Part shown: positions 10,159 to 28,170 of the stretch, piece by piece
Layout: the number at the start of each line of letters is the position of its first letter
Position numbering within the stretch: position 1 is the first letter of the stretch
The notes under the pieces: model-generated
Seen by the model: only the letters and a program-made list of their open reading frames with translations
Databases searched by the model: none
Told to the model about the DNA's origin: nothing
Source: Haloferax denitrificans ATCC 35960
GTDB lineage: Archaea; Halobacteriota; Halobacteria; Halobacteriales; Haloferacaceae
DNA: 64,000 nt
Direction: 5' to 3'
NCBI RefSeq assembly: GCF_000337795.1
Contig: NZ_AOLP01000004.1
Span: 62,001-126,000 of the forward strand
Translations under genes and position numbers: made by a program

Positions 10159-10929
10159 CTACGAGTAGGTCGCGCGGATGCCGATGACGCGGGCGGCCTG
10201 CGTCACCATCTCGGGGACCTCCGTGTGGTACCACTCGCCTTTCATCCGGGTGGTCGGGCCGGAGACGCTAATCGCGCCGAGGATGGTCTCGTCGTCGGAG
10301 AGAATCGGCGCGCCGACCGCCCGCATGCCGGTGATGCGCTCTTCGTCGTTGAAGGCGTAGCCGCGCTCGCGAATCGTCGCCAACTCGGCTTCGAGGGCGT
10401 CGCGGTCGTCTATCGTCTTCGTCGTCAGGCGCGTCAGTTCGCCGTCGAGAATCTCCCTTCGGCGCTCCTCGTCGCAGAAGGCGAGATAGGACTTGCCGAC
10501 CGACGTGGTGTGGAGGTCGACGGTCGTGCCGATGTGCGAGTCGGTCTGGAGGCCCTGTTCGGACTTCACCTGATAGATGTAGACGCCGCGGCCGTTCTCC
10601 TCGACCATCACCTGTCCGCGCTCGCCGACCGCCTCGACGAGGTCGTCCATCTCGCCGATGGAGGCGTGGTACAGCGCGTGTCGCGTCCGGGCGTGGTCGC
10701 CGAGGTCGAGGAACTTCAGGCCCAGCGCGTACTCGTCGCCCTGCCTGACGACGTAGCCGAGTTCCGCGAGCGTCTTGAGATGGTTGTGGGCCGTGCTCTT
10801 CGAGATGCCGAGGTCGTTCGCTATCTCCGACACCCCGCTCGCGTCGTGGTCCCTGATGTGTTCGACGATGCCGAACGAGGTTTTCGTAGCGCCGATTGTT
10901 CCCGTCGCATCGTTCCCGTTCGTGTTCAT
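10159..10929 (-). CDS. IclR-family transcriptional regulator
   Basis: A 256-residue IclR protein. The N-terminal winged helix (about 10-75; SFGIVEHIRDHDASGVSEIANDLGISKSTAHNHLKTLAELGY) is followed by the GAF-like effector domain (about 90-250; VDLHTTSVGKSYLAFC; ERGYAFNDEERITGMRAVGAPI). IclR proteins usually control catabolic operons in response to an acid or aromatic intermediate. It is the last gene on the strand carrying livHMGF and the two MmgE/PrpD genes, 72 nt after the latter, so it is the likely regulator of the island. I chose ATG 10929 over an in-frame TTG at 10938. An AT-rich TATA-like element lies about 25 nt upstream. Confidence 0.92.
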   Translation of the reverse strand: MNTNGNDATGTIGATKTSFGIVEHIRDHDASGVSEIANDLGISKSTAHNHLKTLAELGYVVRQGDEYALGLKFLDLGDHARTRHALYHASIGEMDDLVEAVGERGQVMVEENGRGVYIYQVKSEQGLQTDSHIGTTVDLHTTSVGKSYLAFCDEERRREILDGELTRLTTKTIDDRDALEAELATIRERGYAFNDEERITGMRAVGAPILSDDETILGAISVSGPTTRMKGEWYHTEVPEMVTQAARVIGIRATYS

Positions 10930-11001
10930 AGTTAGCAATCAGGGAGTGAGGTAATAATTGTTGGCGTTTTGTTCGGGCAGGCCGAACGAGTGTTCGCCTC
11001 A

Positions 11002-12372
11002 CTACCGAGTCAGCGCGGCGACGGTCTCGCGGACCGGCCTCGAACCGACCGACGAGAGCGCGTCGAGCGCCGCGTCCGCGTCGTCGTCGCCGAGACCGAA
11101 CGCGAGCAGGTCGCGGTTGCGCGAGTCGAGGTCGGTCGCCGACAGCGGGTCGCGGTAGTCGCCGCGGGGGTACTCGCGCTCGCCGACGTAGCGGCTCCCG
11201 TCGCGGGCGGTCACCTCGACGCGCGCCCCCCAATCGTCGGGGAACGCCCGCTCGAACGCCTCGTCCACGTGGAGGTGGACGCGTTCCGAGAGCCCCTGCA
11301 CGGCCTCGTCGCCGAGCGCGTCGTCGAGGAAGTCGTCGAGTTCGACGCTCCCGTCCGCGACCCAGCGGGCGAGGACGTACGGCGTCGAGAACTTCGCCGC
11401 GGTGAGCGTCTCGGGCCGCGCGTGGCTCATATCGACGCCGTTGTGGTAGGTGTACACGTCGATTCGGTCCACGTCGTCGGGCGCGAGGTCGTCCGCGCCG
11501 GCGTCACGCAGGGCGTCGAGCGGGGCGTGGGTGTAGCGACACGACGGGTACGGCTTCTGGTAGGCCTCGGTAATCCACCAGTCGTCGCCGAGCGAGTCGA
11601 ACAGCGCGGCGAACTCGCCGTCCGCGAGGAGCGTCTCGAACGGGTCGTAGACGGCCTCCATCGCCGCGGGCGACCCGCGGAGACCGGCGGCGGTCAGCGT
11701 CGCGGCGCTCACGCCGGCCTGCGCGGAGAACCCGGCGGTGACGTTCCGCGACGGCGCGCCCTCCGCGAAGGGGTCGTGCATGGAGACGACCGCGAGGTTC
11801 AGCGCGGTGCGGACCGTCTCGCGCACCTCGTCGGGCGACTGGCCCGCGCAGACGGCGGCGGTCAGCGCCGGCCCGAGCGTCGTCCACGTCGAGTGCGGGT
11901 CGCGGACGAGCCACGGAATCGCCTCGTTCATCCGCGCCTTCATGGCGAAGATGGCGTACTCGAAGCGCGCGCAGAGTTCGTACGAGCGGACGCAGGCCTC
12001 CACGAACGTCTCGCCGTCCACGTCGTTGGCCTCGGCGACGCCGACCGCGCCCGCGACGACGCTCGCGCCGACGTGGCCGCCGCGGTTGTGGCCCTCCTCT
12101 ATCTCCTGTGTTATCGCGGCCGTCGCGTTCAACAGCGCCGCCTGCGACGGGTCGACCCGGCGGTCGGTCCCGAGGACGGACGCCGGGCCGTCGGCCAGTT
12201 CCGCGTCGCGGAAGACGCCCGCGTGTTGCGGGGCGGCCGCTCCGGCGACGGTCGCCGCGAGCACGTCCGCGACGATTCGCTCGCCGTCGGCGCGCACGTC
12301 GTCGGGGAGTTCGTCGGTCAGAAAGCCGTACACCTGTCGTTCCCAGTCTCTGACTGGCTCGTGTGAAATCAT
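11002..12372 (-). CDS. MmgE/PrpD family protein 1
   Basis: A 456-residue MmgE/PrpD-family enzyme. Known members are 2-methylcitrate dehydratase, cis-aconitate decarboxylase and iminodisuccinate epimerase, all acting on tri- or dicarboxylates. Family hallmarks include NRGGHVGASVVAGAVGVAEA in the helical domain and KPYPSCRYTHAPLDAL, with the conserved Lys, Cys, Arg and His. It lies 24 nt after a paralogous gene in the same operon as the Liv transporter. No methylcitrate synthase gene lies nearby, so a propionate role is unlikely; I infer an isomerase or hydratase step on the imported compound. Confidence 0.88.
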   Translation of the reverse strand: MISHEPVRDWERQVYGFLTDELPDDVRADGERIVADVLAATVAGAAAPQHAGVFRDAELADGPASVLGTDRRVDPSQAALLNATAAITQEIEEGHNRGGHVGASVVAGAVGVAEANDVDGETFVEACVRSYELCARFEYAIFAMKARMNEAIPWLVRDPHSTWTTLGPALTAAVCAGQSPDEVRETVRTALNLAVVSMHDPFAEGAPSRNVTAGFSAQAGVSAATLTAAGLRGSPAAMEAVYDPFETLLADGEFAALFDSLGDDWWITEAYQKPYPSCRYTHAPLDALRDAGADDLAPDDVDRIDVYTYHNGVDMSHARPETLTAAKFSTPYVLARWVADGSVELDDFLDDALGDEAVQGLSERVHLHVDEAFERAFPDDWGARVEVTARDGSRYVGEREYPRGDYRDPLSATDLDSRNRDLLAFGLGDDDADAALDALSSVGSRPVRETVAALTR

Positions 12373-12396
12373 GGTCTCGGTGAGTGTCGGGGGCGC

Positions 12397-13725
12397 TCAG
12401 GCCCGGGTGAGGGCGCAGAGCACGCGGGGGGCGGCGGGTTCGGTCGCCGCGGTCCAGAGGTCGTCGACGCCGCCGTCGCCGATGACGGGCGCGACGAGTC
12501 GGTCGAACTTCGCTCGGAGCTCCGATTCGGTGAAGGGGTCGCGCTCGCCGCCGCGGGCGGCGCGCACCTCGCGGGCGTACCGCTCGCCGTCGACCGTCTC
12601 GACGGTGACGCGCGCGCCGCGCTCGTCGGGGGCGCGGGCCGCGAACTCCTCGGTGGCGACCACGTCCACGCGGCGAGCGAACCCGAGGGCGGTCTTCGTC
12701 AGCGCCTCGTCGGTGAACGCCTCCTTGCCGGTCTCGCCGGTCGTCAGCGCCGACGCGACGGCGAAGGGAACCGAGAACTTCGCCTGCAGGGCGTTGGCGG
12801 GCGCGGGTTCCGACAGCGCCGCCGCGGCGGGGTACGTCTCGACGGTGACGGAGTCGACCTCGGCCGCGACGACGCCCGTCTCGTCGACGAGGAGCGCCAC
12901 GGCGTCGAGGGCGGCGTGGGTGTAGCGGCAGGCCGCGTGGACCTTGAAGTAGCCGCGCTCGATTTCCCAGCGCTCGCCGAGTCCGTCTGCGAGGGCGCTC
13001 CGGTCGGGACCGTCCGCGGCGACGGGTTCGAGGTGTCGGGCCACGCCGTCGTCGAGGCCGGTGAAGCCGGATTCGGCCTGGTCGACCGCGAGCAGGCCCG
13101 AGAGGTTACTCATCCCGACGTAGCCGTTTCTGACGGTCGCGCCCTCGGTGGCCGCCTCGAACCGGGTGTGCTGGGCGTAGTTCGCCGCGATGCGCATCGC
13201 GTCGAGCGTCGTCTCGGCGTCGAGGCCGCGGAGCCGGGCGACGGCCGCGGCGGTGCCGACGCCGCCCCACACGCCGTGGGGGTGCAGGCCGTCGGCGAGC
13301 GGGACGACCGCCTCGGCGGCGCGGACCGCCGCCTCGTAGCCGGCGACGAACGCCGTCAGGAACTCGTCGCCGCTCCGGTAGGCGGACTCGCCGTCCGCGA
13401 GGAGCGCGGGCAGGACGTGAATCGCCGGGTGGCCGGCCGCGAAGCGGTGGCCCTCGTCGAGTTCGAGGACGCTCCCGGCGGCCGCGTTGACGAACGCGGC
13501 GCGGTACGCGGTGGTCCGCTCGCCAGCCGTCCCCATGACGGTCGATTCGCCGCCGTTCTCGTCGGCCCACCGGCGCGCTAACGCGGCGACCGCGGGGTCC
13601 GACGCGCCGCCCAGCACCGCGCCGATGGTGTCGGCGACGACGAGGGACGCGCGCTCGACGACCGACGCGGGGAGGTCGGCCCGGTCGAGGTCGGAAACGA
13701 ACGACGCGAGCGCTTCGTCCGTCAT
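12397..13725 (-). CDS. MmgE/PrpD family protein 2
   Basis: A 442-residue paralogue of the preceding protein. It shows the same hallmarks (ELDEGHRFAAGHPAIHVLPALLA; YFKVHAACRYTHAALDAVALL). Its start (ATG 13725) is one base from the livF stop, so it is translationally linked to the transporter. The two MmgE/PrpD copies differ widely in sequence, which suggests distinct reactions or a heteromer rather than a recent duplication. The substrate is unknown; a dicarboxylate or its derivative is the family-based expectation. Confidence 0.88.
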   Translation of the reverse strand: MTDEALASFVSDLDRADLPASVVERASLVVADTIGAVLGGASDPAVAALARRWADENGGESTVMGTAGERTTAYRAAFVNAAAGSVLELDEGHRFAAGHPAIHVLPALLADGESAYRSGDEFLTAFVAGYEAAVRAAEAVVPLADGLHPHGVWGGVGTAAAVARLRGLDAETTLDAMRIAANYAQHTRFEAATEGATVRNGYVGMSNLSGLLAVDQAESGFTGLDDGVARHLEPVAADGPDRSALADGLGERWEIERGYFKVHAACRYTHAALDAVALLVDETGVVAAEVDSVTVETYPAAAALSEPAPANALQAKFSVPFAVASALTTGETGKEAFTDEALTKTALGFARRVDVVATEEFAARAPDERGARVTVETVDGERYAREVRAARGGERDPFTESELRAKFDRLVAPVIGDGGVDDLWTAATEPAAPRVLCALTRA

Positions 13726-13726
13726 C

Positions 13727-14431
13727 TCACACCCCGAGGTACGCCTCGACGACGCCCTCGTCTTCGAGGAGTTGGTCGCCGTCGGCGGTCATGCTGATGC
13801 GGCCGTTCTCCATGACGTAGCCCCGGTCGGCCAGCTTGAGCGTCTGTTGGACGTTCTGTTCGACCATGAGCACCGTCATGCCCTGCGCGTGGATGTCCTC
13901 GATGACGTCGAACACCTCTTGGACGAGGTGCGGCGCGAGCCCGATGGACGGCTCGTCGAGGATGAGCAGGTCGGGCTCGCCCATGAGGGCGCGGGCGAGC
14001 GTCAGCATCTGCTGTTCCCCGCCGGACATGGTGCCGGCGCGCTGGTTCTTGCGCTCCGCGAGGCGGGGGAACAGCTCCAGCATCTCGCCGAGGTTCTCCT
14101 CGCGGTTCGCCTTCGCCTCCTCGGTCTGCGCGCCGAGAAGCAGGTTGTCGATGACGGTCATGTTGGTGAACAGGTCGCGGTTCTCGGGGACCTGTACGAT
14201 GCCGCGCTCGACGATTTCGTGGGACGCCTTCGAGTGAATCGCCTCGTCGCGGTAGGTAATCTCGCCGTGGCTCGGCGAGAGGATGCCGCAGATGGTGCGC
14301 ATCGTCGTGGTCTTGCCCGCGCCGTTCGACCCGATGAGCGCGACGATTTCTCCCTCGTCGACGCGCATGTCGACGCCGTGGAGCACCTCGATGTCGTCGT
14401 AGCCGGCGCGGACGCCGCGAAGTTCAAGCAT
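13727..14431 (-). CDS. livF: Branched-chain amino acid-type ABC transporter ATPase LivF
   Basis: A 234-residue ABC ATPase of the LivF class. Walker A is GSNGAGKTT, the signature is TMSGGEQQML, Walker B is LLILDEPSIGLAP, and the C-terminus is VEAYLGV, typical of LivF. It overlaps livG by 8 nt. With LivG, LivH and LivM it would power uptake through the inner complex. Liv-type (HAAT) systems also move urea, amides and aromatic acids, and the context here suggests a nitrogenous catabolic substrate rather than leucine. Confidence 0.95.
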   Translation of the reverse strand: MLELRGVRAGYDDIEVLHGVDMRVDEGEIVALIGSNGAGKTTTMRTICGILSPSHGEITYRDEAIHSKASHEIVERGIVQVPENRDLFTNMTVIDNLLLGAQTEEAKANREENLGEMLELFPRLAERKNQRAGTMSGGEQQMLTLARALMGEPDLLILDEPSIGLAPHLVQEVFDVIEDIHAQGMTVLMVEQNVQQTLKLADRGYVMENGRISMTADGDQLLEDEGVVEAYLGV

Positions 14432-15212
14432 CGACGTCGAACCCCCCGATGTAGGCCTCGATGACGCGGTCGTCTTCGACCACCGTCTCCGGCGCGCCGA
14501 AGGCGATGCCCTTCCCCTGGTCCAGCACTTTCACGTAGTCCGAGATGTTCATGATGGCTTTCATGTCGTGTTCGATGATGAGGAGGCTCGTCCCGCGCTC
14601 GCGCAGTTGGCGGAACAGGTCGAGCATCTGCTTCGACTCCGACGGGGTGAGCCCCGCCATAATCTCGTCGAGAAGCAGGATTTCCGGGCGCGTCGAGACC
14701 GCACGGGCGAGTTCGAGGCGCTTCTGTGCGCCCACGGTGAGCTCGCCCGCCTCCTCTTCGGCCTTGTCCGCGAGCCCGACGAATTCGAGGTTCTCCATGG
14801 CGATTTCGCGCGCCTCGCTCCGGCGGCGCGTGTGGATGTGCGCGCCGACCATCGCGTTCTCGACGACGGTCAGTTCCTCCAGCGGGCGCGTGATTTGGAA
14901 CGTCCGCGCCAGCCCCGCCCGCGCGATTTTGTGCGCCGGGAGGCCGGAGATGACCTCGCCGTCGAGTCGGACGGTCCCGCTCGTCGGCGGGAACGCCCCG
15001 CTGATGCAGTTGAAAAGCGTGGTCTTGCCCGCGCCGTTCGGCCCGATGAGGCCGATAATCTCGCCGCGGTTGACGGTCATGTCCACGTCGTCGAGCGCCT
15101 GCAGGCCGGAGAAGCGCTTGCCGACGCCCTCGACCGACAGAATCCGCTCGCCGTCGCGGTCGATGTCGGCGTCCGGGTCGGCGTCGGGTGCGGTCGTCTC
15201 GTCTGCCGACAT
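14424..15212 (-). CDS. livG: Branched-chain amino acid-type ABC transporter ATPase LivG
   Basis: A 262-residue ABC ATPase of the LivG class. Walker A is GPNGAGKTT, the Q-loop region is ARTFQITRPLEELTVVENAMVG, Walker B is EILLLDEIMAGLTP, and the C-terminus is VIEAYIGGF. An acidic N-terminal extension of about 25 residues precedes the domain. The start is ATG 15212, which shares bases with the livM stop codon. The frame remains open for a further 460 nt upstream, but that is an artefact of reading across livM. Confidence 0.95.
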   Translation of the reverse strand: MSADETTAPDADPDADIDRDGERILSVEGVGKRFSGLQALDDVDMTVNRGEIIGLIGPNGAGKTTLFNCISGAFPPTSGTVRLDGEVISGLPAHKIARAGLARTFQITRPLEELTVVENAMVGAHIHTRRRSEAREIAMENLEFVGLADKAEEEAGELTVGAQKRLELARAVSTRPEILLLDEIMAGLTPSESKQMLDLFRQLRERGTSLLIIEHDMKAIMNISDYVKVLDQGKGIAFGAPETVVEDDRVIEAYIGGFDVDA

Positions 15213-16288
15213 CACTCGCTCACCTCCTCGTCGCCGCGGACGCGGTTCCAGAGGGCGCGCGCCTGACTCGGCCAGCTCACCACGCCGCGCGGCGAGTAGA
15301 TGACGATGGCCACGAGGAACGCGCCGTAGATGATGCGGTCGAGGCCGTTGATGTCGGAGAACGTCGTCCGCGCGATTTCGCTGACCGGCGTGACGATGAA
15401 CGAGCCGACGATGGGGCCCAGAAGCGTCCCCGGCCCGCCGACGACGGCGGGCAGGAGCAGTTCGACGTTCTTGAACAGCGCGAACACGGTGTCGGGGCGG
15501 ATGGTGTTGAAGTACATCGACCAGTAGGCACCGCCGAGGGCGGTGAAGAAGGCGCTGACGGCGACGCCGATGAGCTTGTACCGGAAGCTCGGCACGCCGA
15601 CGCTGGCGGCGGCCCGCTCGTCCTCGCGGATGGCGAAGAAGTACAGCCCGACCCACGAGTTCTTGATGACCCACGAGACGAGCGTCACGACGAGCAGGAA
15701 GCCGACGATGAGGTAGTAGTACGGCAGGTCGCTCTGGAACTGGAAGGCCGCGAGACCGTACTCCGCGCCGTAGTCACGCGGGAACGGTTTGAAGTAGCCG
15801 TTGGCACCGTGGAGTTCGGACATGTTGGTGACGACGAAGCGGAGCAGTTCCGCGAACGCCAGCGTCGCCAGCGCGAAGTAGTGACCCTGTAAGTTGAAGC
15901 GGAACGACAGCGCGCCGATGACGAGGCCGTACACCGCCGCGAGCACGCCGCCGACGAGCATGCCAATCCACGGGTTCACCGCGAAGTCGACGACGAGCGC
16001 CTGCGTGGCGTACGCGCCGACGCCGAAGAACGCCGCGTGCCCGAACGAGAACTGCCCGGTGTAGCCGGACATGATGTTCCACGCCTGCGCCGTGTAGGCG
16101 TAGATGACCGTGAGGATGAGCATCCGAAGGCTCAGCGTCGCCGCGAGTTCCATCCCGGCGACGTCGATTTCGATGAGCGTCGGGAGCGCCGCGAGCAGGC
16201 CGAACAGGGCGACGCCCTTCACCAACGGGGCGTACCGCCCGTCGTCGAACGTCCGGTAGCGGTCGCGGACGGACTCGATTGCGCTCAC
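15212..16288 (-). CDS. livM: Branched-chain amino acid-type ABC transporter permease LivM
   Basis: A 358-residue membrane permease with about ten hydrophobic segments. Family motifs include YTGQFSFGHAAFFGVGAYA near residue 75 and the cytoplasmic EAA-like loop FAIREDERAAASVGV, which contacts the ATPase. A highly charged C-terminal tail ends in RVRGDEEVSE. It overlaps livH (4 nt) and livG, so it belongs to one transcription unit. Confidence 0.95.
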   Translation of the reverse strand: MSAIESVRDRYRTFDDGRYAPLVKGVALFGLLAALPTLIEIDVAGMELAATLSLRMLILTVIYAYTAQAWNIMSGYTGQFSFGHAAFFGVGAYATQALVVDFAVNPWIGMLVGGVLAAVYGLVIGALSFRFNLQGHYFALATLAFAELLRFVVTNMSELHGANGYFKPFPRDYGAEYGLAAFQFQSDLPYYYLIVGFLLVVTLVSWVIKNSWVGLYFFAIREDERAAASVGVPSFRYKLIGVAVSAFFTALGGAYWSMYFNTIRPDTVFALFKNVELLLPAVVGGPGTLLGPIVGSFIVTPVSEIARTTFSDINGLDRIIYGAFLVAIVIYSPRGVVSWPSQARALWNRVRGDEEVSE

Positions 16289-17250
16289 GCCTCAGCACCT
16301 CCGAACAGCCCCTCGGGCTTGACGAGGAGCGTCCCGATGAAAAGCAGGAAGATGAGCACTTGCGCGGTGGTCCCGGGGAGGTAGTAGCCGCCGAACACCT
16401 GAATCAGCCCGACGATGAGGCCGCCGACGAACGCGCCGGGGAACGAGCCGAGGCCGCCGAGGATGACGATGACGAAGGCGTTGATGAGGTACGTCTCGCC
16501 GGTGAAGGGGTCGAACCGCTGGAACAGCGCGATGGAGCCGCCGGCGACGCCGGCCAGCGCCGCGCCGATGCCGAAGGTGAGGTAGTTGATGCGGCGGACG
16601 TTGATGCCGACGTAGCGCGCGCCGTCGCGGTTGTCGGCGGTGCCGCGAATCTTCCGACCGAGGTCGGTCCGGTTCAGGAACGCCCGCACGGCGAGCATCG
16701 TCCCGAGCGCGATGACGAGCGCGTAGAACTGCCCGAGCGGGATGAAGACGTCGCCGACCTGCACCGACCCGAGCGAGAGTTCGACCTGCTGGGGGTCGGG
16801 CGTGAACAGGATTTCGATGGCCGACTGGATGATGAAGAGAACGCCCAGCGTGGCGATGAGCTGGTTCTGCTGGGGTGCCTCGATGATGGGCTCGACCGTG
16901 AGAATATGGACCACCACCCCGAGGGCGAACAGCACCGCGGCGGCGATGGGTATCCCGAGGAACGGGCTGATGCCGGCCGTCTCGGAGACCAACCACACCG
17001 AGTACATCCCGACGACGAGGAAGATGCCGTGGGCGAAGTTGATGACGTCCATCACGCCGAATATCATCGTCAGCCCGAGCGCCGTCAGCGCGTAGACGCC
17101 CCCGAGCAGGAGGCCGAACGCGAGCAACTGTAGGAGGACGGGCTCCAGATTGGTGATGTCGGTCAGGAACTGTGCGAACGGGTCGATGAATCGGCCGAGG
17201 CCACCGCCCTGTAGCGGCAGGGGCGCGACCGATGTGACTAGATGTCCCAT
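16285..17250 (-). CDS. livH: Branched-chain amino acid-type ABC transporter permease LivH
   Basis: A 321-residue permease with about eight hydrophobic segments. Typical LivH motifs are LTMIFGVMDVINFAHG and the coupling loop FLNRTDLGRKIRGTADNRDGARYVGIN. It is the first gene of livHMGF-prpD-prpD. I chose ATG 17250; an in-frame TTG at 17280 would add ten residues. A TATA-like TTTTAT (minus strand, about 17286-17291) lies about 35 nt before the ATG, so the operon probably has its own promoter separate from livK. Confidence 0.94.
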   Translation of the reverse strand: MGHLVTSVAPLPLQGGGLGRFIDPFAQFLTDITNLEPVLLQLLAFGLLLGGVYALTALGLTMIFGVMDVINFAHGIFLVVGMYSVWLVSETAGISPFLGIPIAAAVLFALGVVVHILTVEPIIEAPQQNQLIATLGVLFIIQSAIEILFTPDPQQVELSLGSVQVGDVFIPLGQFYALVIALGTMLAVRAFLNRTDLGRKIRGTADNRDGARYVGINVRRINYLTFGIGAALAGVAGGSIALFQRFDPFTGETYLINAFVIVILGGLGSFPGAFVGGLIVGLIQVFGGYYLPGTTAQVLIFLLFIGTLLVKPEGLFGGAEA

Positions 17251-17344
17251 GCGGTTTCTACGCTCGGGAATTGTTGTCAACCCCCATAAAAGGTGGCTAT
17301 CGTTCGAGACGGTTCGTTGACGTGACGGCGCGGGCGGGTAGCGG

Positions 17345-18667: not shown

Positions 18668-18832
18668 GGCAATCGGTATCGAGGTTAGTGCCTACTGTAA
18701 TAAATCCTCCCGTACTCGTGTTGTCACGTTCTGCGGATATTCCTGCGACGAATCGGGTTCCGGACGGCGAACTGCGTCGAAAAACGAGTAGTTTCGAGTG
18801 CCCTGCTCCGGGGCCGTGACCCCGCCGCGGCG

Positions 18833-20502: not shown

Positions 20503-20910
20503 ATGGACTCGCCACGAGACATCGTCGAGGAGTTCTTCGACCGCATGGAAGACGACCGCAGGAACACCGTCGGCGACCTGTTCGCCGAGGACGCCGTCAT
20601 CTCCCTGCCGGGAGCGACCTTCGAGGGACCGACCGCGGCCTACGACTTCCTCGCGTACCTCGAACCGCGGTACGAGTGGGCGGCGAAGGAGTTCGACCGC
20701 TGGCTGGAGGCGGGCGACACCGTCGTGAGCGTCGGGTCGCTCTACGGCGTCGACAACGACGGCGCGGACTTTTCGGACGTTCGCTACGTCGATATCTACG
20801 TCGTCCGCCGGGGGCTCATCGAGCGCCTCGACATCTGGAACGACCTCGCCGTCGACGGCGTCGTCCCGGTCCCGGCCGACGACGCGCCCGCGGTCCCGGC
20901 GGAGGAATGA
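20503..20910 (+). CDS. SnoaL-like/NTF2-fold protein
   Basis: A 135-residue protein of the NTF2-like superfamily (SPRDIVEEFFDRMEDDR at the start; AVISLPGATFEGPTAAYDFL; RGLIERLDIWNDL). These cone-shaped domains include hydrolases, cyclases and isomerases, and also inactive binding proteins. It opens the plus-strand operon and its stop shares bases with the start of the LLM oxidoreductase gene. I chose ATG 20503; a GTG at 20467 is also in frame. Its catalytic role, if any, is unknown. Confidence 0.78.
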   Translation: MDSPRDIVEEFFDRMEDDRRNTVGDLFAEDAVISLPGATFEGPTAAYDFLAYLEPRYEWAAKEFDRWLEAGDTVVSVGSLYGVDNDGADFSDVRYVDIYVVRRGLIERLDIWNDLAVDGVVPVPADDAPAVPAEE

Positions 20911-21884: not shown

Positions 21885-21950
21885 CATGACGCCGGCGGAC
21901 CGTGCCGTACTTTTATGCCGGATGCCACCGCATCTCAAGCGAAGCGAGTC

Positions 21951-22610
21951 ATGACAGACCGTATCTGGGAGGACCTGCTATCCGAACAGGATAAACAGGT
22001 CATCACGAAGGCTGGTTACGACAAGGAGGGCGCCTCGTCGTGGGAGTCCCGCGGCATGGGCGAGAACCCGATGGTTCTCGTCATCGACATGCAGCGGCTC
22101 ATCGTCGGCGAGAACGTCCCCATCCTCGACGCCATCGAGGAGTACCGCACCGCGATGGGCGACATCGCGTGGGACGCCATCGAGCACATCGACCCGTTCC
22201 TCGACTTCGCGCGGGAGCAGGGGCTTCCGGTGACGTACACGCGGGTCGTCCCGTCGAGCTACGACGACCCCGACCACCCCGACCTCGACATCGTCGACCC
22301 GGTCGCGCCCGAGGAGGGCGACACCGTCGTCGACAAGTCCTACGCGTCGGCGTTCTACGGGACCGACCTGCTCTCGCGGCTCGTCCGCGGGGGCCACGAC
22401 TCGGTCATCATCGTCGGCAACTCCACGAGCGGGTGCGTCCGCGCCACCGCGGTGGACGCAAAGCAGAACGGCCTCAGCGTCGTCCTGCCGCAGGAGTGCA
22501 TCTTCGACCGCATCGAGGCGTCGCACAAAATCGGCCTCCTCGACCTGTGGATGAAGTACGCCGAGGTGCTGGAGACCGAGGCGGTCGAGGAGTGGGTCGA
22601 GACGCTATGA
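21951..22610 (+). CDS. Isochorismatase-fold amidohydrolase (N-carbamoylsarcosine amidase-like)
   Basis: A 219-residue cysteine hydrolase. The catalytic triad is visible: Asp46 (VLVIDMQ), Lys129 (VVDKSYASAF) and Cys162 (NSTSGCVRATAVDA). The last motif is typical of the N-carbamoylsarcosine amidase subgroup, which releases ammonia from carbamoyl or amide groups. I place the start at ATG 21951, with a TATA-like CTTTTATG about 35 nt before it, giving this and the following genes an internal promoter. It overlaps the hydantoinase by 4 nt, so it probably hydrolyses that enzyme's product. A maleamate-type substrate is an alternative. Confidence 0.9.
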   Translation: MTDRIWEDLLSEQDKQVITKAGYDKEGASSWESRGMGENPMVLVIDMQRLIVGENVPILDAIEEYRTAMGDIAWDAIEHIDPFLDFAREQGLPVTYTRVVPSSYDDPDHPDLDIVDPVAPEEGDTVVDKSYASAFYGTDLLSRLVRGGHDSVIIVGNSTSGCVRATAVDAKQNGLSVVLPQECIFDRIEASHKIGLLDLWMKYAEVLETEAVEEWVETL

Positions 22611-24013
22611 CCCACGACCACGACCTCGTCATCTCGAACGGCACCGTCGTCACGCCCGAACACGGCACGTTCGAGGCCGACGTCGCGGCCGACGGCGAGA
22701 CAATCTCCGCCGTCGCCGCGCCCGGGACGCTCTCGGGCGAGACGGAAATCGACGCGACGGGCAAGCACGTGCTCCCGGGCGCAATCGACCCGCACACCCA
22801 CCACGGTATCTACCGCGGACTGGAGGCGGACGCCGAGTCCGAGTCCAAGTCCGACCTCGTCGGCGGCGTGACCACCATCGGGAACTACTTCCGCCGGGCC
22901 GGGGCCTACGAGGACATCATGCCGGGCTACTTCGACGAGGCGGAGCCGAACTACTACCACGATTACTTCTTCTCGCTCGGCCTGCTCTCGATGGAGCACG
23001 TCGAGGAGATTCCGACCATCATCGACGAGTTCGGCATCACGACGTTCAAGTGGTACATGAACTACAAGGACGCCGCCCGCGAGAAGTTCGGCGTCGACTG
23101 CGATATGCACGACGACTTCGGCGACGCGTTCGTCCGGAAACTCGCCGAACAGGACGTGCCGACGACGCTCGGCTACCACTCCGAGAACGTCGAAATCACG
23201 AACGCGCTCGCCGGCGGCAACGTCTACGTCACCTCGGAGTCCGACGACACCGACGCCGACGCCGACGAGGGCTACGAGGTGATGGTCGAGGAGTTCCCCG
23301 GCTACGCCGAGACCCAGAGCATGGTCGCCGGGGCCGCGCTCGCCAAGGTCCACGGCTACGACGACCGCTTCTACGCGGTCCACATCTCCGCCGGGGGGAC
23401 GGCCGACGAACTCGCCGCGCTCCACGACGCGGGCTACGAAGCGTGGGGCGAGACGTGTATCCACTATCTCGCGCTCACCACAGAGGAGTGCGACGAGCGC
23501 ATGAAGGTGAACCCGCCGGTCCGGTCGAAAGCCGACCAAGAGACGCTCTGGGAGCGCCTCGCCGACGGCACCATCTCGACTATCGGGACCGACCACTGCG
23601 CCAACCTCGCGGAGAACAAGTTCGGCGACGGCATCCGCGACAGCCTGCTCGGGTTCCCCTCGACGCCCGTGATGCTCCCGCTCATCCTCTCGGAGGGCGT
23701 CAACGAGGGCCGCATCTCGCTGGAGCGCGCCGTCGAGGTCACGAGCACCAACGCGGCGAAGGCGTTCAATCTCTACCCCAAGAAGGGGACGGTCCGGGTC
23801 GGAAGCGACGCCGACCTCGCCGTCGTCGACCTCGACGAGACGAAGACGGTCACGCCGGAACTGTTACACAGCGTCAGCGGCTACTCCCCCTACGAGGGCC
23901 GAGACGTCACCGGCTGGCCGACTCAGACCGTCGTGAAGGGCGAACTCGCCTACGACGACGGGGAGATAGTCGGCACGAAGGGCCACGGCACCCACATCGA
24001 CCGGCCGGTGTGA
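22607..24013 (+). CDS. Dihydropyrimidinase/D-hydantoinase-type cyclic amidohydrolase
   Basis: A 468-residue amidohydrolase. The binuclear metal site is intact: His63 and His65 (IDPHTHHG), the probable carboxylated Lys148 (TTFKWYMNYKD), His191 (GYHSEN), a later His (HISAGGTADEL) and Asp (GTDHCAN). These enzymes open hydantoins, dihydropyrimidines or cyclic imides. The gene overlaps the upstream amidase by 4 nt, forming a ring-opening/amide-hydrolysis pair. The CoA-transferase gene follows after 153 nt. The exact ring substrate cannot be read from sequence. Confidence 0.92.
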   Translation: MTHDHDLVISNGTVVTPEHGTFEADVAADGETISAVAAPGTLSGETEIDATGKHVLPGAIDPHTHHGIYRGLEADAESESKSDLVGGVTTIGNYFRRAGAYEDIMPGYFDEAEPNYYHDYFFSLGLLSMEHVEEIPTIIDEFGITTFKWYMNYKDAAREKFGVDCDMHDDFGDAFVRKLAEQDVPTTLGYHSENVEITNALAGGNVYVTSESDDTDADADEGYEVMVEEFPGYAETQSMVAGAALAKVHGYDDRFYAVHISAGGTADELAALHDAGYEAWGETCIHYLALTTEECDERMKVNPPVRSKADQETLWERLADGTISTIGTDHCANLAENKFGDGIRDSLLGFPSTPVMLPLILSEGVNEGRISLERAVEVTSTNAAKAFNLYPKKGTVRVGSDADLAVVDLDETKTVTPELLHSVSGYSPYEGRDVTGWPTQTVVKGELAYDDGEIVGTKGHGTHIDRPV

Positions 24014-24166
24014 AGACGGCGGAGACCCGACGCGACTCACTCGACCCGCCGCCGACCCATAACGCTGACTGACCGGCCGAACGCGACCGGGCACACGAAC
24101 GCGGCCACCCACACGCACCACCAGACGACCACCACACGCGACACAGAACGAGAAGACACACACGAC
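24014..24166 (+). other. CA-rich intergenic spacer
   Basis: This 153-nt spacer is rich in CAC/ACA runs (24090-24165). A possible TATA-like CCCATAACG lies at about 24056, over 100 nt before the next ATG. It may carry a promoter for the CoA-transferase to LeuD set, or give an unstructured leader. Confidence 0.4.
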
Positions 24167-25372
24167 ATGACGAACGACACGAACGGACCACTCGACGGCC
24201 TCGTCGTCCTCGAAGCCGGGTCGATGATATCCGGCCCGACCGTCGGCCGCTTCCTGGCCGACTTCGGGGCGACGGTCATCAAAATCGAACACCCGGCGTT
24301 CGGCGACCACATCCGCCGCTTCGGTCCACAGAAAGACGGCGTCGGCCTCTGGCACAAGTACCTCTCGCGGAACAAGCAGTCTATCACCCTGAACATCTCC
24401 ACCGACGAGGGCGCGGCGGTGTTCGAGGACCTCGTGGGCGAGGCGGACCTCCTCATCGAGAACTTCCGACCCGGCACGCTCGAACGCTGGAACGTCGGCT
24501 GGGAGCGACTCTCCGAGGTCAACGACGACCTCGTGATGCTCCGGATGTCCGGCTTCGGCCAGACCGGCCCGTACGCCGAGCGCCCCGGCTTCGGGACGCT
24601 CGCGGAGGCGATGTCCGGCTTCGCCTACCTCAACGGCTTCCCCGACTCGCCCCCGTTGCTCCCGCCGACCGGCCTCGCCGACAACATCGCGGCGCTGTTT
24701 TCGACGTTCGCGGTGATGTTCGCGCTCTACCACCGCGACGTCCACGGCGGCGGCGGCCAGTACATCGACACGAGCCTCATCGAACCTATCTTCGGCCTGC
24801 TCGGGCCGCAACCGCTCCGCTACGACCAACTCGGCGAAATCGAGTCGCGGTCGGGCAACCGCTCGACCTCGTCGGCCCCGCGGAACGTCTACCGGACGGG
24901 CGACGACCGCTGGGTCGCCATCTCCGCGAGCGCCCAACCGCTCGCCGAGCGCACGTTCGACGCCATCGACCGCCCCGACCTGAAAGACGACCCGCGGTTC
25001 GAGACCAACGAGGACCGACTGGAGCACGTCGACGAACTCGACGCCATCATCCAAGACTGGATGGACGACCACAGCCGCGAGGAGGTGCTCGACGCGTTCG
25101 AGGCGGCCGACGCGACGCTCGCGCCCGTCTACAACGTCGAGGACATCCTCAACGACGAGCACTACGCGGCGCGCGAGGCGTTCCTGACGGTCGACGACCC
25201 GGACCTCGGCGAGGCGGTCGTCCAGAACGCCTTCCCGAAGTTCTCGGAGACGCCCGGGCGGGTCGACCACCTCGGTCCGTCGCTCGGCGAACACAACGAC
25301 GCGGTCTACCGCGACCGCCTCGGCTACGACGAGTCGGTGCTTTCGGACCTCGAAGCGGAGGACGTGATATGA
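24167..25372 (+). CDS. CaiB/BaiF class III CoA-transferase
   Basis: A 401-residue class III CoA-transferase. The N-terminal VVLEAGSMISGPTVGRFLADFGATVIKIE and the probable catalytic Asp172 (TGLADNIAAL) match the family, as does RPGFGTLAEAMSGFA. These enzymes move CoA between carboxylic acids. Its stop shares bases with the start of the HMGL-like lyase gene. A CoA-transferase of this class next to an HMG-CoA-lyase-type enzyme is the arrangement known for succinyl-CoA:D-citramalate CoA-transferase and R-citramalyl-CoA lyase in Chloroflexus. I infer activation of a citramalate- or malate-type acid here. Confidence 0.92.
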   Translation: MTNDTNGPLDGLVVLEAGSMISGPTVGRFLADFGATVIKIEHPAFGDHIRRFGPQKDGVGLWHKYLSRNKQSITLNISTDEGAAVFEDLVGEADLLIENFRPGTLERWNVGWERLSEVNDDLVMLRMSGFGQTGPYAERPGFGTLAEAMSGFAYLNGFPDSPPLLPPTGLADNIAALFSTFAVMFALYHRDVHGGGGQYIDTSLIEPIFGLLGPQPLRYDQLGEIESRSGNRSTSSAPRNVYRTGDDRWVAISASAQPLAERTFDAIDRPDLKDDPRFETNEDRLEHVDELDAIIQDWMDDHSREEVLDAFEAADATLAPVYNVEDILNDEHYAAREAFLTVDDPDLGEAVVQNAFPKFSETPGRVDHLGPSLGEHNDAVYRDRLGYDESVLSDLEAEDVI

Positions 25373-26328
25373 GCCTCCTCGACTCGCTTCCCGAGCGCGT
25401 CCACGTCGTCGAGATGCTCCCGCGCGACGGGTTCCAGCGCCTCGACGAGTTCGTCCCGACCGACGAGAAAGTCGAGATAATCGACGCCCTCTCGGACACC
25501 GGCGTGGACGAAATCGAGCTCTCCTCTTTCACCCACCCGAAGGCCGTCCCGACCCTGCGGGACGCCGACGAGGTGGCGAAGCGAATCACCCGCCGCGACG
25601 GCGTGACCTACCGGGCGCTCGTCCCCAACCTCCGGGGCATGGAGCGCGCCGTCGAGGCCGAGGTGGACAAGGTGAACGCGCTCGTCACGGTGAGCGAGAC
25701 CTACACGAGCAAAAACCAGAATCGCACCCGCGAGGAGGTGCTCGCGGAGATGGACGACATCGTCGCCCTCGCCCACGACCACGGCATCGAGGTCGAAGCC
25801 GGGATGGGCACGAGCTTCTACTGTCCCTACGAGGGCGCAATCGACCCCGCGGAGACCCTCGCGGTCGTCGACAGCGTCGTCGACTCCGGCGTCGACGAGG
25901 TGACGCTGGCGACGACGATGGGCCTCGCCAACCCGGTCGAAATCACGGAGCGGTTCACCGCCGCGTTCGAGGCGCATCCCGGCCTCGACATGGGCCTGCA
26001 CCTCCACGACACGAACGGGATGAGCCTCGCCAACACGCTGGCCGCGATGGCCGTCGGCGTCGACCGCTTCGACGCCTCGGTCTGCGGGCTCGGCGGCGGC
26101 GTCGTCCTCCCGGGCGACATGTCCGGCGTCGGCAACACGCCGACCGAGGACCTCGTCCAGATGCTCGAACGCATGGGCGTCGGCCACGGCGTCGACTTCG
26201 GCCGCATCGAGGCGGCCGCCCACGACGTGTCCGACCGACTGGGCCTCGGCCTGACGAGTCACGTCCTCGCGGGCGGCACCGTCGAGGGCGTCCTCGACAC
26301 CGTCGCGGCCGACGGGGAGGGGGACTGA
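25369..26328 (+). CDS. HMG-CoA lyase-like aldolase (acyl-CoA lyase)
   Basis: A 319-residue TIM-barrel protein of the HMGL-like family. It retains MLPRDGFQ (metal/substrate Asp), ELSSFTHPKAVPTLRDA and the metal-binding HLHDTNG. The family signature that holds the catalytic Cys (GLGGCP) reads GLGGGVVLPGDMSGVGNTPTEDL, so the Cys is replaced by Gly. It is therefore probably not a standard HMG-CoA lyase. Operon position between a CoA-transferase and a LeuCD-type hydratase points to cleavage of a 3-hydroxyacyl-CoA such as citramalyl-CoA. Other HMGL-fold reactions remain possible. Confidence 0.85.
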   Translation: MSLLDSLPERVHVVEMLPRDGFQRLDEFVPTDEKVEIIDALSDTGVDEIELSSFTHPKAVPTLRDADEVAKRITRRDGVTYRALVPNLRGMERAVEAEVDKVNALVTVSETYTSKNQNRTREEVLAEMDDIVALAHDHGIEVEAGMGTSFYCPYEGAIDPAETLAVVDSVVDSGVDEVTLATTMGLANPVEITERFTAAFEAHPGLDMGLHLHDTNGMSLANTLAAMAVGVDRFDASVCGLGGGVVLPGDMSGVGNTPTEDLVQMLERMGVGHGVDFGRIEAAAHDVSDRLGLGLTSHVLAGGTVEGVLDTVAADGEGD

Positions 26329-26329
26329 G

Positions 26330-27643
26330 ATGTCCGGCAAGACCCTCGCTGAGAAACTGCTTTCGGCGAAGTCCGGCACCGACGCCCGCGCCGGCGACTA
26401 CGTCGAGGCCGACGTGGACGTGGCGATGGCCCACGACATCACCGGGCCGCTCGCGTTCCAGACGTTCGACGAGGTGACGGGCGACGACGGCGAGCTGTTC
26501 GCGCCCGACCGGACCGTCTTCACCATCGACCACCACGCCCCCGCGGACGGCGTGCAGGCCGCGAACAACCACAACGCGGTCCGCGAGTTCGCGGCGGAAC
26601 ACGGCGCACACCAGTTCGACGTGGGCGACGGCATCTGCCACGCCGTGCTCGTCGAGGAGGGCTTCGTCGGCCCCGGCGACCTCGTCATCGGCGCGGACTC
26701 CCACTCGACGACCTACGGCGGCATCGGCGCGTTCGGGACCGGCGTCGGCTCGACCGACCTCGGGACCGCGCTCGCGACGGGCGAACTCTGGTTTCGCGTC
26801 CCGAAGACCCTGCGCTTCGAGGTCGACGGCGACCTCCAGGACGGCGTCTACGCGAAGGACCTCATCCTGCGCTTCATCGGCGACGTGGGCTTCGACGGCT
26901 GTACCTACATGGCCGCCGAGTACGCCGGGAGCACCATCGAGTCGCTCCCGATTCACGAGCGTCTCGTCCTCTCGAACATGGCCATCGAGATGGGCGGCAA
27001 GACGGGACTCGTCGCGCCCGACGAGCGCACCGAGTCGTACCTCGAACGCCAGACCGGGAACGAAATCGACCTCGGCGACGCGTTCGTCTCCGACGACGAC
27101 GCCGACTACGAGGCGGTCCACACGTACGACGCGGCCGCTCTCGCCCCGCAGGTCTCGAAGCCGTCGAACCCCGAGAACGCGGTCGACGTGACCGAGGTCG
27201 CGGGCACCGAAATCGACCAGCTGTTCGTCGGCACCTGCACGAACGGCCGGTACGAGGACATCAAGGTCGTCGCGGACATCCTCGCGGGCGAGACCATCGC
27301 CCCGAACGTCCGGATGGTCGTCGTCCCCGCCTCGAAGTCCGTCTACCAGCACATGCTCCAGACGGGCGTCTTCCAGACGCTCACCGACGCGGGCGCGGTC
27401 ATCCAGAGCGCCGGCTGTGGCCCCTGCGCGGGCTACCATCAGGGCGTCCTCGGCGACGGCGACGTCTGTCTCGCCACGGCGAACCGGAACTTCCCCGGCC
27501 GCGAGGGGTCGATGGAGTCGTCGGTCTACCTGTCGAGTCCGGCGACCGTCGGAGCGAGCGCGCTGTACGGCGAAATCACCGACCCCCGCGAGGTCGAGAC
27601 GAAACGCTACGACGACACGGTGTTCGCGGAGGTGCTTCCATGA
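26330..27643 (+). CDS. Aconitase-family hydratase, large subunit (LeuC-like)
   Basis: A 437-residue archaeal-type LeuC/homoaconitase large subunit. The [4Fe-4S] ligands are visible: Cys in VGTCTNGRYED, and two in SAGCGPCAGYH. Other motifs are GADSHSTTYGGIGAFGTGVGSTD and FTIDHHAP. The family hydrates or isomerises isopropylmalate, homocitrate, maleate, citraconate or dimethylmaleate. No other leucine genes are nearby, and the partners are catabolic. I infer maleate/citraconate-type hydratase rather than leucine biosynthesis. It begins one base after the lyase stop and overlaps the small subunit gene. Confidence 0.9.
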   Translation: MSGKTLAEKLLSAKSGTDARAGDYVEADVDVAMAHDITGPLAFQTFDEVTGDDGELFAPDRTVFTIDHHAPADGVQAANNHNAVREFAAEHGAHQFDVGDGICHAVLVEEGFVGPGDLVIGADSHSTTYGGIGAFGTGVGSTDLGTALATGELWFRVPKTLRFEVDGDLQDGVYAKDLILRFIGDVGFDGCTYMAAEYAGSTIESLPIHERLVLSNMAIEMGGKTGLVAPDERTESYLERQTGNEIDLGDAFVSDDDADYEAVHTYDAAALAPQVSKPSNPENAVDVTEVAGTEIDQLFVGTCTNGRYEDIKVVADILAGETIAPNVRMVVVPASKSVYQHMLQTGVFQTLTDAGAVIQSAGCGPCAGYHQGVLGDGDVCLATANRNFPGREGSMESSVYLSSPATVGASALYGEITDPREVETKRYDDTVFAEVLP

Positions 27644-28170
27644 CTGACGCGTTCGCCGGCGACGGCGGCCGTCCCGACCCCGCAGAACCCGGTCGCGCGT
27701 GGGTCTTCGGCGACAACATCGACACCGACCAGATAACCCCGTCGCGCTTCATCGTCTCGTCGGACCCCGACGAACTCGCCAGCCACGCCTTCGAGGACCT
27801 CAGACCCGAGTTCTCCGGGTCGGTCGAGACCGGCGACTTCGTCGTCGCCGGCGAGAACTTCGGAAGCGGGTCGTCGCGGGAGCACTCGCCGCTGTCGCTC
27901 GTCGGCGCGGGCGTCTCGGCGGTCGTCGCGCAGTCGTTCGCGCGCATCTTCTTCCGCAACGCCATCAACCTCGGCCTGCCGGTGCTCATCTGCCCCGGCG
28001 CGGACGCCATCGAGGACGGCGACGAGATTCACGTCGACCTCGACGCGGGCGTCGTGACGAACCACACGCGAGACGAGACGTACGAGGCGGAGGCGCTCCC
28101 CGAGTTCCTCCAGTCGCTCGTCGAACAGGGGGGGCTGAAAGCCTACACGAAGGCGAAACTCGACGGCTGA
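27640..28170 (+). CDS. Aconitase-family hydratase, small subunit (LeuD-like)
   Basis: A 176-residue swivel-domain subunit. It has the expected GDNIDTDQITPSRF, GENFGSGSSREHSPLSLVGAGVSAVVAQSFARIFFRNAINLGLP. In archaeal LeuD-type proteins the residues after the first motif (YLRT or YLVY in characterised methanogen enzymes) help set the substrate. Here the region reads SRFIVSSDP, unlike either, which agrees with a non-leucine substrate. It forms the active enzyme with the preceding large subunit and is the last gene of the plus-strand catabolic operon. Confidence 0.9.
   Translation: MTDAFAGDGGRPDPAEPGRAWVFGDNIDTDQITPSRFIVSSDPDELASHAFEDLRPEFSGSVETGDFVVAGENFGSGSSREHSPLSLVGAGVSAVVAQSFARIFFRNAINLGLPVLICPGADAIEDGDEIHVDLDAGVVTNHTRDETYEAEALPEFLQSLVEQGGLKAYTKAKLDG

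Follow-up and report, generated by a model that had tools for sequence, protein, structure and literature searches.

The 64,000-nucleotide window of Haloferax denitrificans ATCC 35960 DNA analyzed here (contig NZ_AOLP01000004.1, positions 62,001 to 126,000) contains an 18-kb island at window positions 10159-28170, whose 17 genes, all intact open frames, are arranged in two divergent arms. The two arms form one inherited, probably catabolic unit, and its gene families point, with a somewhat better than even chance, to a substituted five-membered cyclic imide of the succinimide or maleimide type as the substrate. A preliminary description of this DNA had claimed 17 contiguous genes at this location, and all of them were found as intact frames. 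The families that it named agreed with the Pfam and NCBIfam profile searches on which all family assignments here are based, and the arms diverge where it placed them, at a gap of 236 bases (20267-20502). The one gene that it counted but left unnamed encodes a SnoaL/NTF2-like protein (20503-20910).

In the proposed pathway, the compound would be imported by a Liv-type ATP-binding cassette (ABC) importer. The ring would then be prepared by the SnoaL-like protein and an LLM oxidoreductase (and by an SDR enzyme in some relatives), which is the least certain step. Two MmgE/PrpD enzymes would epimerize carbon centers, and a flavin adenine dinucleotide (FAD) enzyme would desaturate the succinimide to a maleimide. 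A hydantoinase-like metal enzyme (Hyd) would open the imide to a half-amide, from which an isochorismatase-like cysteine hydrolase (Isoch) would release ammonia and leave an alkylmaleate. This would be hydrated by LeuCD to an alkylmalate, converted by CaiB to its coenzyme A (CoA) ester, and cleaved by an HMGL-like lyase to an acyl-CoA and a 2-oxoacid, the latter being pyruvate if one substituent is methyl. We infer these reactions, their order, and the substrate class from what was observed in the island and its relatives, namely which genes are present and inherited together, the families they belong to, the conservation of metal ligands and triads, and a partial replacement of enzymes in individual slots. 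Several features guide this reading. A cyclic amide or imide is indicated because three cyclic-amidohydrolase families share the slot beside the amidase; an amidase-type hydrolase next to the ring opener fits the half-amide left when an imide is opened; and the presence of LeuCD fits a maleate-type diacid, the direct product of a maleimide. The order put forward earlier (import, ring opening, deamidation, hydration, CoA transfer, and cleavage) is consistent with the families, but it overlooked a possible action of the FAD and MmgE/PrpD enzymes ahead of ring opening.

Co-inheritance of the two arms

Four island proteins served as queries against one draw of 292 haloarchaeal genomes. MmgE/PrpD-B of the left arm was found in 24 genomes, and the LLM oxidoreductase of the right arm in precisely these 24. 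Because these sets are identical, we regard the two arms as one unit; the separate occurrence of the arms, named beforehand as an outcome that would count against the island, was not seen. Counted by genome, the hypergeometric probability of this agreement is about 1e-35; if every genus contributes a single count (10 of 77 genera) it is 9e-13, both values being optimistic given relatedness and transfer. The HMGL-like lyase was present in 28 genomes (the 24 together with G081, G207, G087, and G186). Hyd at 62% identity or more gave 28 matches in 27 genomes (the 24 with G081, G207, and G238), and the remaining Hyd matches at E 1e-60 or better had at most 37% identity. Genome G238 (locus L061) carries Hyd without the rest of the island. 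The genes for MmgE/PrpD-B and Hyd lie 6.0 to 19.2 kb apart on the same contig in 23 of the 24 genomes and on separate contigs in one. The distribution is patchy within Haloferax, with Hyd present in 10 and absent from 4 of the 14 genomes listed, and plasmids carry the island in H. gibbonsii, Halorubrum ezzemoulense, Natrinema versiforme, and Halomarina.

The search for the same gene order in other haloarchaea, suggested in the preliminary description, gave a constant order in the Haloferax loci, except where contig ends cut them, but a reshuffled one outside the genus. In Natrinema and Natronorubrum the order is IclR, then FAD, Isoch, Hyd, CaiB, HMGL, LeuC, and LeuD, then MmgE/PrpD-A, then SnoaL and LLM, and then Liv, with a gene of the phosphoenolpyruvate (PEP)-mutase family before MmgE/PrpD-A in some loci. 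Isoch adjoins Hyd in 22 of 23 loci, and CaiB-HMGL-LeuC-LeuD follows Hyd in 19 of the 23; it does not do so in L081, L090, and L091, and L086 stops at a contig edge. The importer also varies: the Liv ATPases of L048, L050, and L051 are distant from those of the island (35 to 45% identity), and Halorubrum ezzemoulense has a single long ATPase gene in the Liv position. In a set of 55 clustered loci, where several are paired views of a single genome, 18 have an SDR gene, beside FAD in some, and an isocitrate-lyase/PEP-mutase-family gene stands beside LeuCD in 6 (two of these being views of one genome).

Duplicated or additional sets were also seen. On one contig of H. massiliensis (G266:C7, NZ_CSTE01000007.1; L040, 1-20000) the island occurs twice, as an inverted repeat joined at the MmgE/PrpD-A genes, which is either a real duplication or an assembly artifact. 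A plasmid of Halomarina sp. BND7 (L097, 1-16572) carries three Isoch-amidohydrolase pairs with one FAD gene and one SnoaL-LLM pair between them; its other downstream genes encode CaiB with a CitE-type lyase, and AtuA/DUF4387 with an acyl-CoA ligase. A literature search on the function of DUF4387/AtuA found no role. A linked second set lies beside the island in L053 (10388-18450) and L090 (4984-12082) and consists of a hydantoinase (33 to 35% identity), an ADP-forming-type acyl-CoA ligase, an acyl-CoA dehydrogenase, LeuC, LeuD, and a PEP-mutase-family lyase. On plasmid unnamed3 of Natrinema zhouii a second set is dispersed among transposases (L113, 6186-12666; L105, 10804-12933), with Liv genes, MmgE/PrpD, an amidohydrolase, LLM, and Isoch (69%), and with CaiB-HMGL without LeuCD about 27 kb away. 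An isochorismatase of Haloarcula marina was not counted as marking a related cluster, the rest of the set being missing.

Proposed ring opening and de-amidation

The proposed imidase (22607-24013, plus strand) is a hydantoinase/dihydropyrimidinase-like metal amidohydrolase (1yny, E 5.7e-59). In an alignment of 35 rows, from which haloDHP_L037 was excluded as misread, H63, H65, K148, H191, H259, and D329 are kept in all 34 usable rows. These residues form the binuclear metal site of D-hydantoinase/dihydropyrimidinase, in which we take the four histidines, a carbamylated lysine, and the aspartate to be the metal ligands. The protein falls under the cut-off of the D-hydantoinase equivalog (TIGR02033, 247 versus 393 bits) and has the motif NPP in place of SPP, which holds the substrate-binding serine.

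The proposed half-amidase (21915-22610, plus strand; PF00857) is an isochorismatase-family amidohydrolase. For this family, as for the FAD, HMGL, and MmgE/PrpD proteins, alignments were made from chosen loci, with members of at least 45% identity and sufficient length. D58, K141, and C174 are kept in 29 of 29 aligned rows and correspond to the Asp-Lys-Cys triad of maleamate-type half-amidases, which is presumably catalytic. The closest structures are 4l07 (2e-20), the N-carbamoylsarcosine amidohydrolase 26st (1.1e-19), and 3ot4 (2.5e-19), of which we take 4l07 and 3ot4/3uao to be maleamate amidases. The earlier label of a carbamoylsarcosine-amidase-like hydrolase is therefore close by score, yet other structures are about equally close.

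Enzymes that may act ahead of ring opening

MmgE/PrpD-A (11002-12372, minus strand; PF03972/PF19305) is proposed to be an epimerase or isomerase of the ring or of the opened form, and MmgE/PrpD-B (12397-13725, minus strand; assigned by Pfam) a second epimerase; the best solved relative of the latter is IDS-epimerase (2hp3, E 1.3e-27). Characterized MmgE/PrpD enzymes are described as acting on 1,4-dicarboxylates, the carboxyls of which are held by five residues, and one member of the family is a proven methylsuccinate isomerase; six residues in IDS-epimerase numbering are H85, D88, H99, H150, K198, and K266 (PMC12290011). In both island proteins H99, taken to be the catalytic histidine, and K266 are kept, and all 21 haloarchaeal rows have other residues in place of H85, D88, and K198. 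Over the whole alignment, H85 and K198 are replaced in 24 of 27 rows and D88 in all 27. H150 is kept in MmgE/PrpD-B and is Asn in MmgE/PrpD-A, where the alignment is uncertain. The six-residue set for a free 1,4-dicarboxylate is incomplete in the island proteins.

A similar change was found in the FAD_binding_2 dehydrogenase (18833-20266, minus strand; PF00890), the proposed succinimide desaturase. In 26 of 26 rows Tyr stands where flavocytochrome c3 has Arg402 and Arg544, and the protein thus lacks the residues expected of a fumarate reductase; we take Arg402 to be catalytic and Arg544 to bind carboxylate in that enzyme, and assume its numbering. The carboxylate-binding residues are altered in both the FAD and the MmgE/PrpD proteins, and a neutral succinimide would fit the changed pocket. 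All three enzymes may work ahead of ring opening.

The SnoaL_2/NTF2-like protein (20503-20910, plus strand; 135 residues; PF12680, 9.2e-11) is encoded by a gene whose end overlaps the start of the LLM gene (20907-21884, plus strand; PF00296) by 4 bases. Its predicted model (mean predicted local distance difference test score, 87.3) matches the folds of TerC, a 4OT-SnoaL protein, and limonene epoxide hydrolases. The nearest solved relatives of the LLM oxidoreductase are of the F420-dependent type (Mer; 8qq8, E 1.5e-41). We can only guess that the pair serves in tautomerization or hydrolysis of a ring intermediate. A single gene of Sulfitobacter (L119, 3109-3672) fuses a 4-OT tautomerase domain with a SnoaL domain, and a 4OT-SnoaL protein of another organism has solved structures (9mua and 9mup).

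Proposed hydration, CoA transfer, and cleavage

The last four genes of the right arm, all on the plus strand, encode a family III (CaiB) CoA-transferase (24167-25372; PF02515, 3.2e-115), the HMGL-like C-C lyase (25369-26328; PF00682, 6e-49; NF004283 above its cut-off), and the large (26330-27643) and small (27640-28170) subunits of a LeuCD-type hydratase. LeuCD-type hydratases act on maleate-type diacids. The large subunit scores above the cut-offs of TIGR02086 and TIGR01343 and the small subunit above that of TIGR02087 (LeuD/DmdB), and the equivalogs of 3-isopropylmalate isomerase stay below theirs (TIGR02083, 442.4 versus 610.65; TIGR02084, 196.4 versus 245.85). In the HMGL-like lyase the PRDG, HxH, and GN motifs are kept. 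Plasmid pBB2 of Cupriavidus necator N-1 (L096, 8757-13048) has genes for CaiB, HMGL, LeuC, and LeuD ordered as in the island, accompanied by one for a tricarboxylate-type binding protein and with hydantoinase absent nearby; this group looks like a portable alkylmaleate module.

Bacterial counterparts

Related bacterial clusters, which the preliminary description had missed along with the exchange of hydratase, lyase, and ring-opener families among them, were found on plasmids from matches to island genes; each carries a part of the slots, and the parts overlap. Variovorax has IclR, Liv, MmgE, FAD, MmgE, a CobW-type GTPase, Hyd, and Isoch; Methylobacterium nodulans and M. currus have an isocitrate lyase (ICL)/PEP-mutase-family lyase, Isoch, Liv, MmgE, FAD, MmgE, and Hyd. 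A PEP-mutase-family gene and AcnA are accompanied in Antarctobacter by a SnoaL-like gene, Hyd, Isoch, SDR, and LLM, and in Shinella by Hyd, Isoch, ALDH, and an ABC importer; the wider neighborhood in Antarctobacter did not fill the missing slots. Hydrogenophaga has a CobW-type GTPase, Hyd, Isoch, and PrpB. The FAD enzymes of Variovorax and M. nodulans share 42 to 44% identity and four motifs with that of the island, and MmgE/PrpD-B is 34 to 37% identical to the first bacterial MmgE. When FAD proteins in plasmid records were compared with the Acidiphilium member, a group of at least 38% identity was set apart from the rest, at no more than 31%, among the matches listed (60 of 411).

Five further neighborhoods were chosen from FAD matches and thus not at random. 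Azospirillum has ICL/PEP-mutase, HyuB, HyuA, a Cys hydrolase, FAD, LeuC, and LeuD; Sulfitobacter has LeuCD, HyuAB, Isoch, ICL/PEP-mutase, and FAD; Acidiphilium has CaiB, HMGL, Isoch, two polysaccharide-deacetylase-family genes, LeuCD, and FAD; Rhodococcus has FAD with Hyd, HyuAB, an amidase, CaiB, a CitE-type lyase, and MmgE; and Neorhizobium has LeuCD, Liv, and MmgE together with FAD. LeuCD is thus present in four of the five, a cyclic-amidohydrolase family together with an amidase in four, and MmgE in two. At least three unrelated families occupy the ring-opener slot: dihydropyrimidinase-like proteins; HyuAB, for which caprolactamase is the best model but stays below its cut-off; and proteins of the deacetylase family (for the Acidiphilium pair the best score is allantoinase PuuE, below cut-off). 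In the lyase slot, an isocitrate-lyase/PEP-mutase or CitE type is possible in bacteria instead of HMGL.

Several bacterial loci were set aside. An isochorismatase locus of Neorhizobium NCHU2750 lacks the rest of the set, an Aminobacter cluster has a hydantoinase-like gene (with SPP, not NPP) and an isochorismatase-family gene with the other slots absent, and Nitratireductor, which has HMGL, a CoA transferase, and LLM, lacks both hydantoinase and LeuCD. Loci of Nonomuraea and Novosphingobium were left out of the comparison because they are unannotated.

If the imide assignment is correct, the island offers a testable gene set for substituted cyclic-imide breakdown in archaea and, in related form, in bacteria; the enzymes of several steps would be exchangeable for unrelated families; and likely roles would follow for vaguely named MmgE/PrpD, fumarate-reductase-like FAD, CaiB, HMGL-like, and LeuCD paralogs.

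Evidence weighed against a cyclic imide, and alternative substrates

A number of observations weigh against the imide assignment. The bacterial clusters were chosen from matches to island genes and so do not form a random sample, and none of those examined holds every slot. Hydratase and C-C lyase were not seen in the Variovorax stretches examined, wider neighborhood included, nor was a hydratase in the Methylobacterium clusters; no FAD of the same subfamily is annotated next to Hyd in Antarctobacter or Hydrogenophaga; MmgE did not occur in the 19 kb examined in Sulfitobacter, Azospirillum, and Acidiphilium, nor did imidase and half-amidase in the 19 kb examined in Neorhizobium; and in Rhodococcus LeuCD is absent and the amidase is of another kind. 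Sequence relationships are equally uneven. The bacterial hydantoinase-like proteins are 32 to 35% identical to that of the island, compared with up to 37% for haloarchaeal hydantoinase-family proteins; the hydrolases of Sulfitobacter and Azospirillum gave no BLAST match to the island Isoch at E 1e-3, that of Sulfitobacter belonging to the same Pfam family; for MmgE/PrpD-A no bacterial counterpart is clear (the best being 29%); and identity to the island equivalents is only 24 to 26% for bacterial IclR and LivK and for the LLM of Antarctobacter.

Within the enzymes themselves, the replacements of D88 by Glu and of K198 by Arg in MmgE/PrpD are conservative and may still allow carboxylates to bind, and the second bacterial MmgE retains H85 and K198. 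Scores for Isoch fail to separate maleamate amidase from N-carbamoyl hydrolases. The loop GLGGC, whose cysteine is catalytic in HMG-CoA lyase, reads GLGGG (GVGGG in one) in the HMGL-like lyase, the cysteine being absent in 15 of 15 haloarchaeal rows, which carry three extra residues at this loop; counterparts in C. necator and Acidiphilium retain the cysteine. The island lyase may rely on a substitute acid/base, or its substrate may differ. A Cys-less HMGL-like protein is also encoded in the N. zhouii cluster without LeuCD (L105, 12001-12933). Finally, two relatives of Hyd (58 to 60% identity) also have Asn in the NPP motif (two of two), so this motif cannot separate imide from hydantoin enzymes, and the clusters around them look like hydantoin-propionate routes. 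The incomplete bacterial clusters, the uneven orthology, and the non-separating NPP motif weaken the imide assignment and raise the main rival, a hydantoin route.

In that rival, which we regard as unlikely, the substrate would be a hydantoin-type cyclic ureide. The hydantoinase would yield an N-carbamoyl amino acid, the isochorismatase-like enzyme would remove the carbamoyl group in the manner of carbamoylsarcosine amidase, and the acid would then be degraded. D-hydantoinase is indeed the best NCBIfam score of the ring opener, though below cut-off, and structures of N-carbamoylsarcosine amidohydrolase score about equal to the best for the second enzyme. The 58 to 60% relatives, with the NPP motif in common, also adjoin a second urocanate hydratase and an ammonia-lyase. 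However, the 17 genes include no deaminase, transaminase, or ammonia-lyase through which the unsaturated diacid needed by LeuCD could be made from an amino acid. PuuE-like and HyuAB proteins fill the ring-opener slot elsewhere, which counts weakly against hydantoins since both families include allantoin, hydantoin, or lactam enzymes. The two clusters with these relatives (L094, 6677-15611; L095, 8666-17317) contain the second urocanate hydratase, an aromatic-amino-acid-type ammonia-lyase, and a D-aminoacylase, with a trimethylamine-methyltransferase-family gene in one of them, and are possibly a haloarchaeal ergothioneine or hercynine route.

A narrower proposal, on circumstantial evidence and in our judgment quite unlikely, is that the island degrades pyrrole-ring imides from chlorophyll, heme, or bilin breakdown. 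Hematinic acid-type imides are products of tetrapyrroles. Hematinic acid and its dihydro form, with a methyl and a propionate group on a maleimide or succinimide, would be epimerized at two centers and desaturated; opening and de-amidation would give a homolog of 2-methyl-cis-aconitate, and hydration and cleavage would give pyruvate and glutaryl-CoA. The ethyl-methyl analog would give pyruvate and butyryl-CoA. Pointers in this direction are the two proposed epimerases with one desaturase, the methylcitrate-cycle families (MmgE/PrpD, aconitase, and PrpB-like) across cluster versions, the acyl-CoA ligase and acyl-CoA dehydrogenase beside the second set in L053 and L090, and bacterial cluster sources that include diatom cultures and a plant. 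The three imidase/half-amidase pairs in Halomarina BND7 would be in keeping with a single source that gives rise to several imides. Two candidate clues were rejected. The L090 acyl-CoA dehydrogenase scores 185 bits against a cut-off of 470 in the glutaryl-CoA dehydrogenase model, and its solved matches are led by general short-chain acyl-CoA dehydrogenases, above glutaryl-CoA ones; hemC in Shinella was dropped, the wider neighborhood being a mixed catabolic region. If the imide assignment is right, what becomes of chlorophyll and heme maleimides in nature could be sought in this island.

Very unlikely is a pyrimidine or pyridine pathway, in which LLM and a RutB-like hydrolase would oxidize and open uracil-, nicotinate-, or similar six-membered rings. 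LLM and isochorismatase families both occur in the Rut pathway. The SnoaL-like gene can be compared with the "polyketide cyclase" described as opening trihydroxypyridine in Rhodococcus and Arthrobacter (PMC9304392). Against this, the RutB model gave 29 bits with a cut-off of 378, the RutA model was absent among the 25 families listed for LLM, and LLM is closest to the F420-dependent Mer among solved structures; LeuCD and alkylmalyl-type lyases fit the C4-backbone diacids of five-membered rings.

That two unrelated units happen to lie side by side, one an importer joined to MmgE genes and the other an operon for an imide or amide, is barely credible and largely refuted by the identical 24-genome sets and by the cohesion of the sets where the order is reshuffled, as in Natrinema, Natronorubrum, Halomarina, and others, even though the arms are divergent and share no operator that we found, C. 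necator carries CaiB-HMGL-LeuC-LeuD without hydantoinase, and Halorubellus (L091) holds hydantoinase alone (61%).

Relation to known systems

Parts of the proposed cyclic-imide pathway resemble known systems. In nicotinate catabolism of Aspergillus nidulans, HxnM and HxnN likewise open a cyclic imide and then hydrolyze the amide. HxnM, a fungal cyclic imidase backed by gene deletion, differs from the island enzyme in being related to the PuuE/deacetylase group and in acting on a six-membered imide; HxnN is, according to that work, not related to the amidases of prokaryotic nicotinate routes; and the route as presented there ends in hydroxyglutarate, with no LeuCD/CaiB/HMGL stage described (PMC9304392). 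The itaconate and methylsuccinate clusters (Ict, Ich, Ccl, Mcd, and Msi) are similar in combining an MmgE/PrpD isomerase, a dehydrogenase, a CoA-transferase, and a citramalyl-CoA lyase but differ, as described, in lacking a nitrogen ring, in dehydrogenating the CoA ester by an acyl-CoA dehydrogenase, and in hydrating at that same level rather than by LeuCD (PMC12290011). The (R)-citramalate system likewise pairs a CoA-transferase with a lyase for a 2-alkylmalate, the enzymes being named (R)-citramalate CoA-transferase (EC 2.8.3.20) and (R)-citramalyl-CoA lyase (EC 4.1.3.46) (PMC8307300). Compared with that system, the island adds an imide front end, and its HMGL-like enzyme is without the HMG-CoA-lyase Cys. 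The (R)-citramalyl-CoA lyase of EC 4.1.3.46 is itself HMGL-like.

Nicotinate fermentation ends with dimethylmaleate hydratase (DmdAB) and dimethylmalate lyase. The island would resemble it in LeuCD-type hydration of a substituted maleate followed by cleavage, and the small subunit falls in the LeuD/DmdB model. Unlike nicotinate fermentation, the island has no B12 mutase among its 17 genes, CaiB and HMGL replace the ICL/PEP-mutase-family gene, and the imidase and half-amidase come first. In agreement with the earlier statement that no described pathway has this gene set, the combination was not found among the papers listed by searches of the open-access (PMC) literature. All of the families are known, and an imidase with an amidase, an MmgE isomerase, and CoA-dependent citramalate cleavage are each known separately.

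Neighboring genes, importer, and regulation

The next genes after the island form a histidine-utilization operon (30958-35529). Relative to H. gibbonsii pHGLR2 (L098), about 1 kb with hutG (formimidoylglutamase) is missing from the operon here, the rest of the genome not having been searched for hutG. An Rfam scan of 9500-29000 gave no matches, and a tRNA scan of the whole window found none. In a PADLOC scan of three island proteins, LLM matched an oxidoreductase model (5e-13) and the other two had no match.

The importer genes, all on the minus strand, encode ATPases of the LivF (13727-14431; PF00005) and LivG (14424-15212, with an alternative GTG start at 15215; PF00005 and PF12399) types, permeases of the LivM (15212-16288; PF02653) and LivH (16285-17250; PF02653) types, and a Liv-type substrate-binding protein, LivK (17345-18667; PF13458, 4e-45), whose best Protein Data Bank sequence match is 8wch. 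The left arm ends with an IclR-family regulator (10159-10929, minus strand; PF01614, 9.1e-38). Between iclR and MmgE/PrpD-A lies the palindrome GTTCGGGCAGGCCGAAC (10971-10987), with 8-bp arms, a candidate autoregulatory operator. Its strict pattern occurs in 6 of 22 scanned sequences (the window, L041, L045, L062, L064, and Halorubrum L099), some of the others stopping short of the site, and in a single copy within the island. A loose pattern was not overrepresented (28 in the window versus a mean of 46 in shuffles). No operator common to both arms was found, the sole clear palindrome noted being that upstream of iclR; the divergent promoter region of 236 bases lies between the FAD and SnoaL starts. 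Neighboring genes overlap by 1 to 8 bases at seven junctions (LivF/LivG, LivG/LivM, LivM/LivH, SnoaL/LLM, Isoch/Hyd, CaiB/HMGL, and LeuC/LeuD), which fits the expectation for co-transcribed units.

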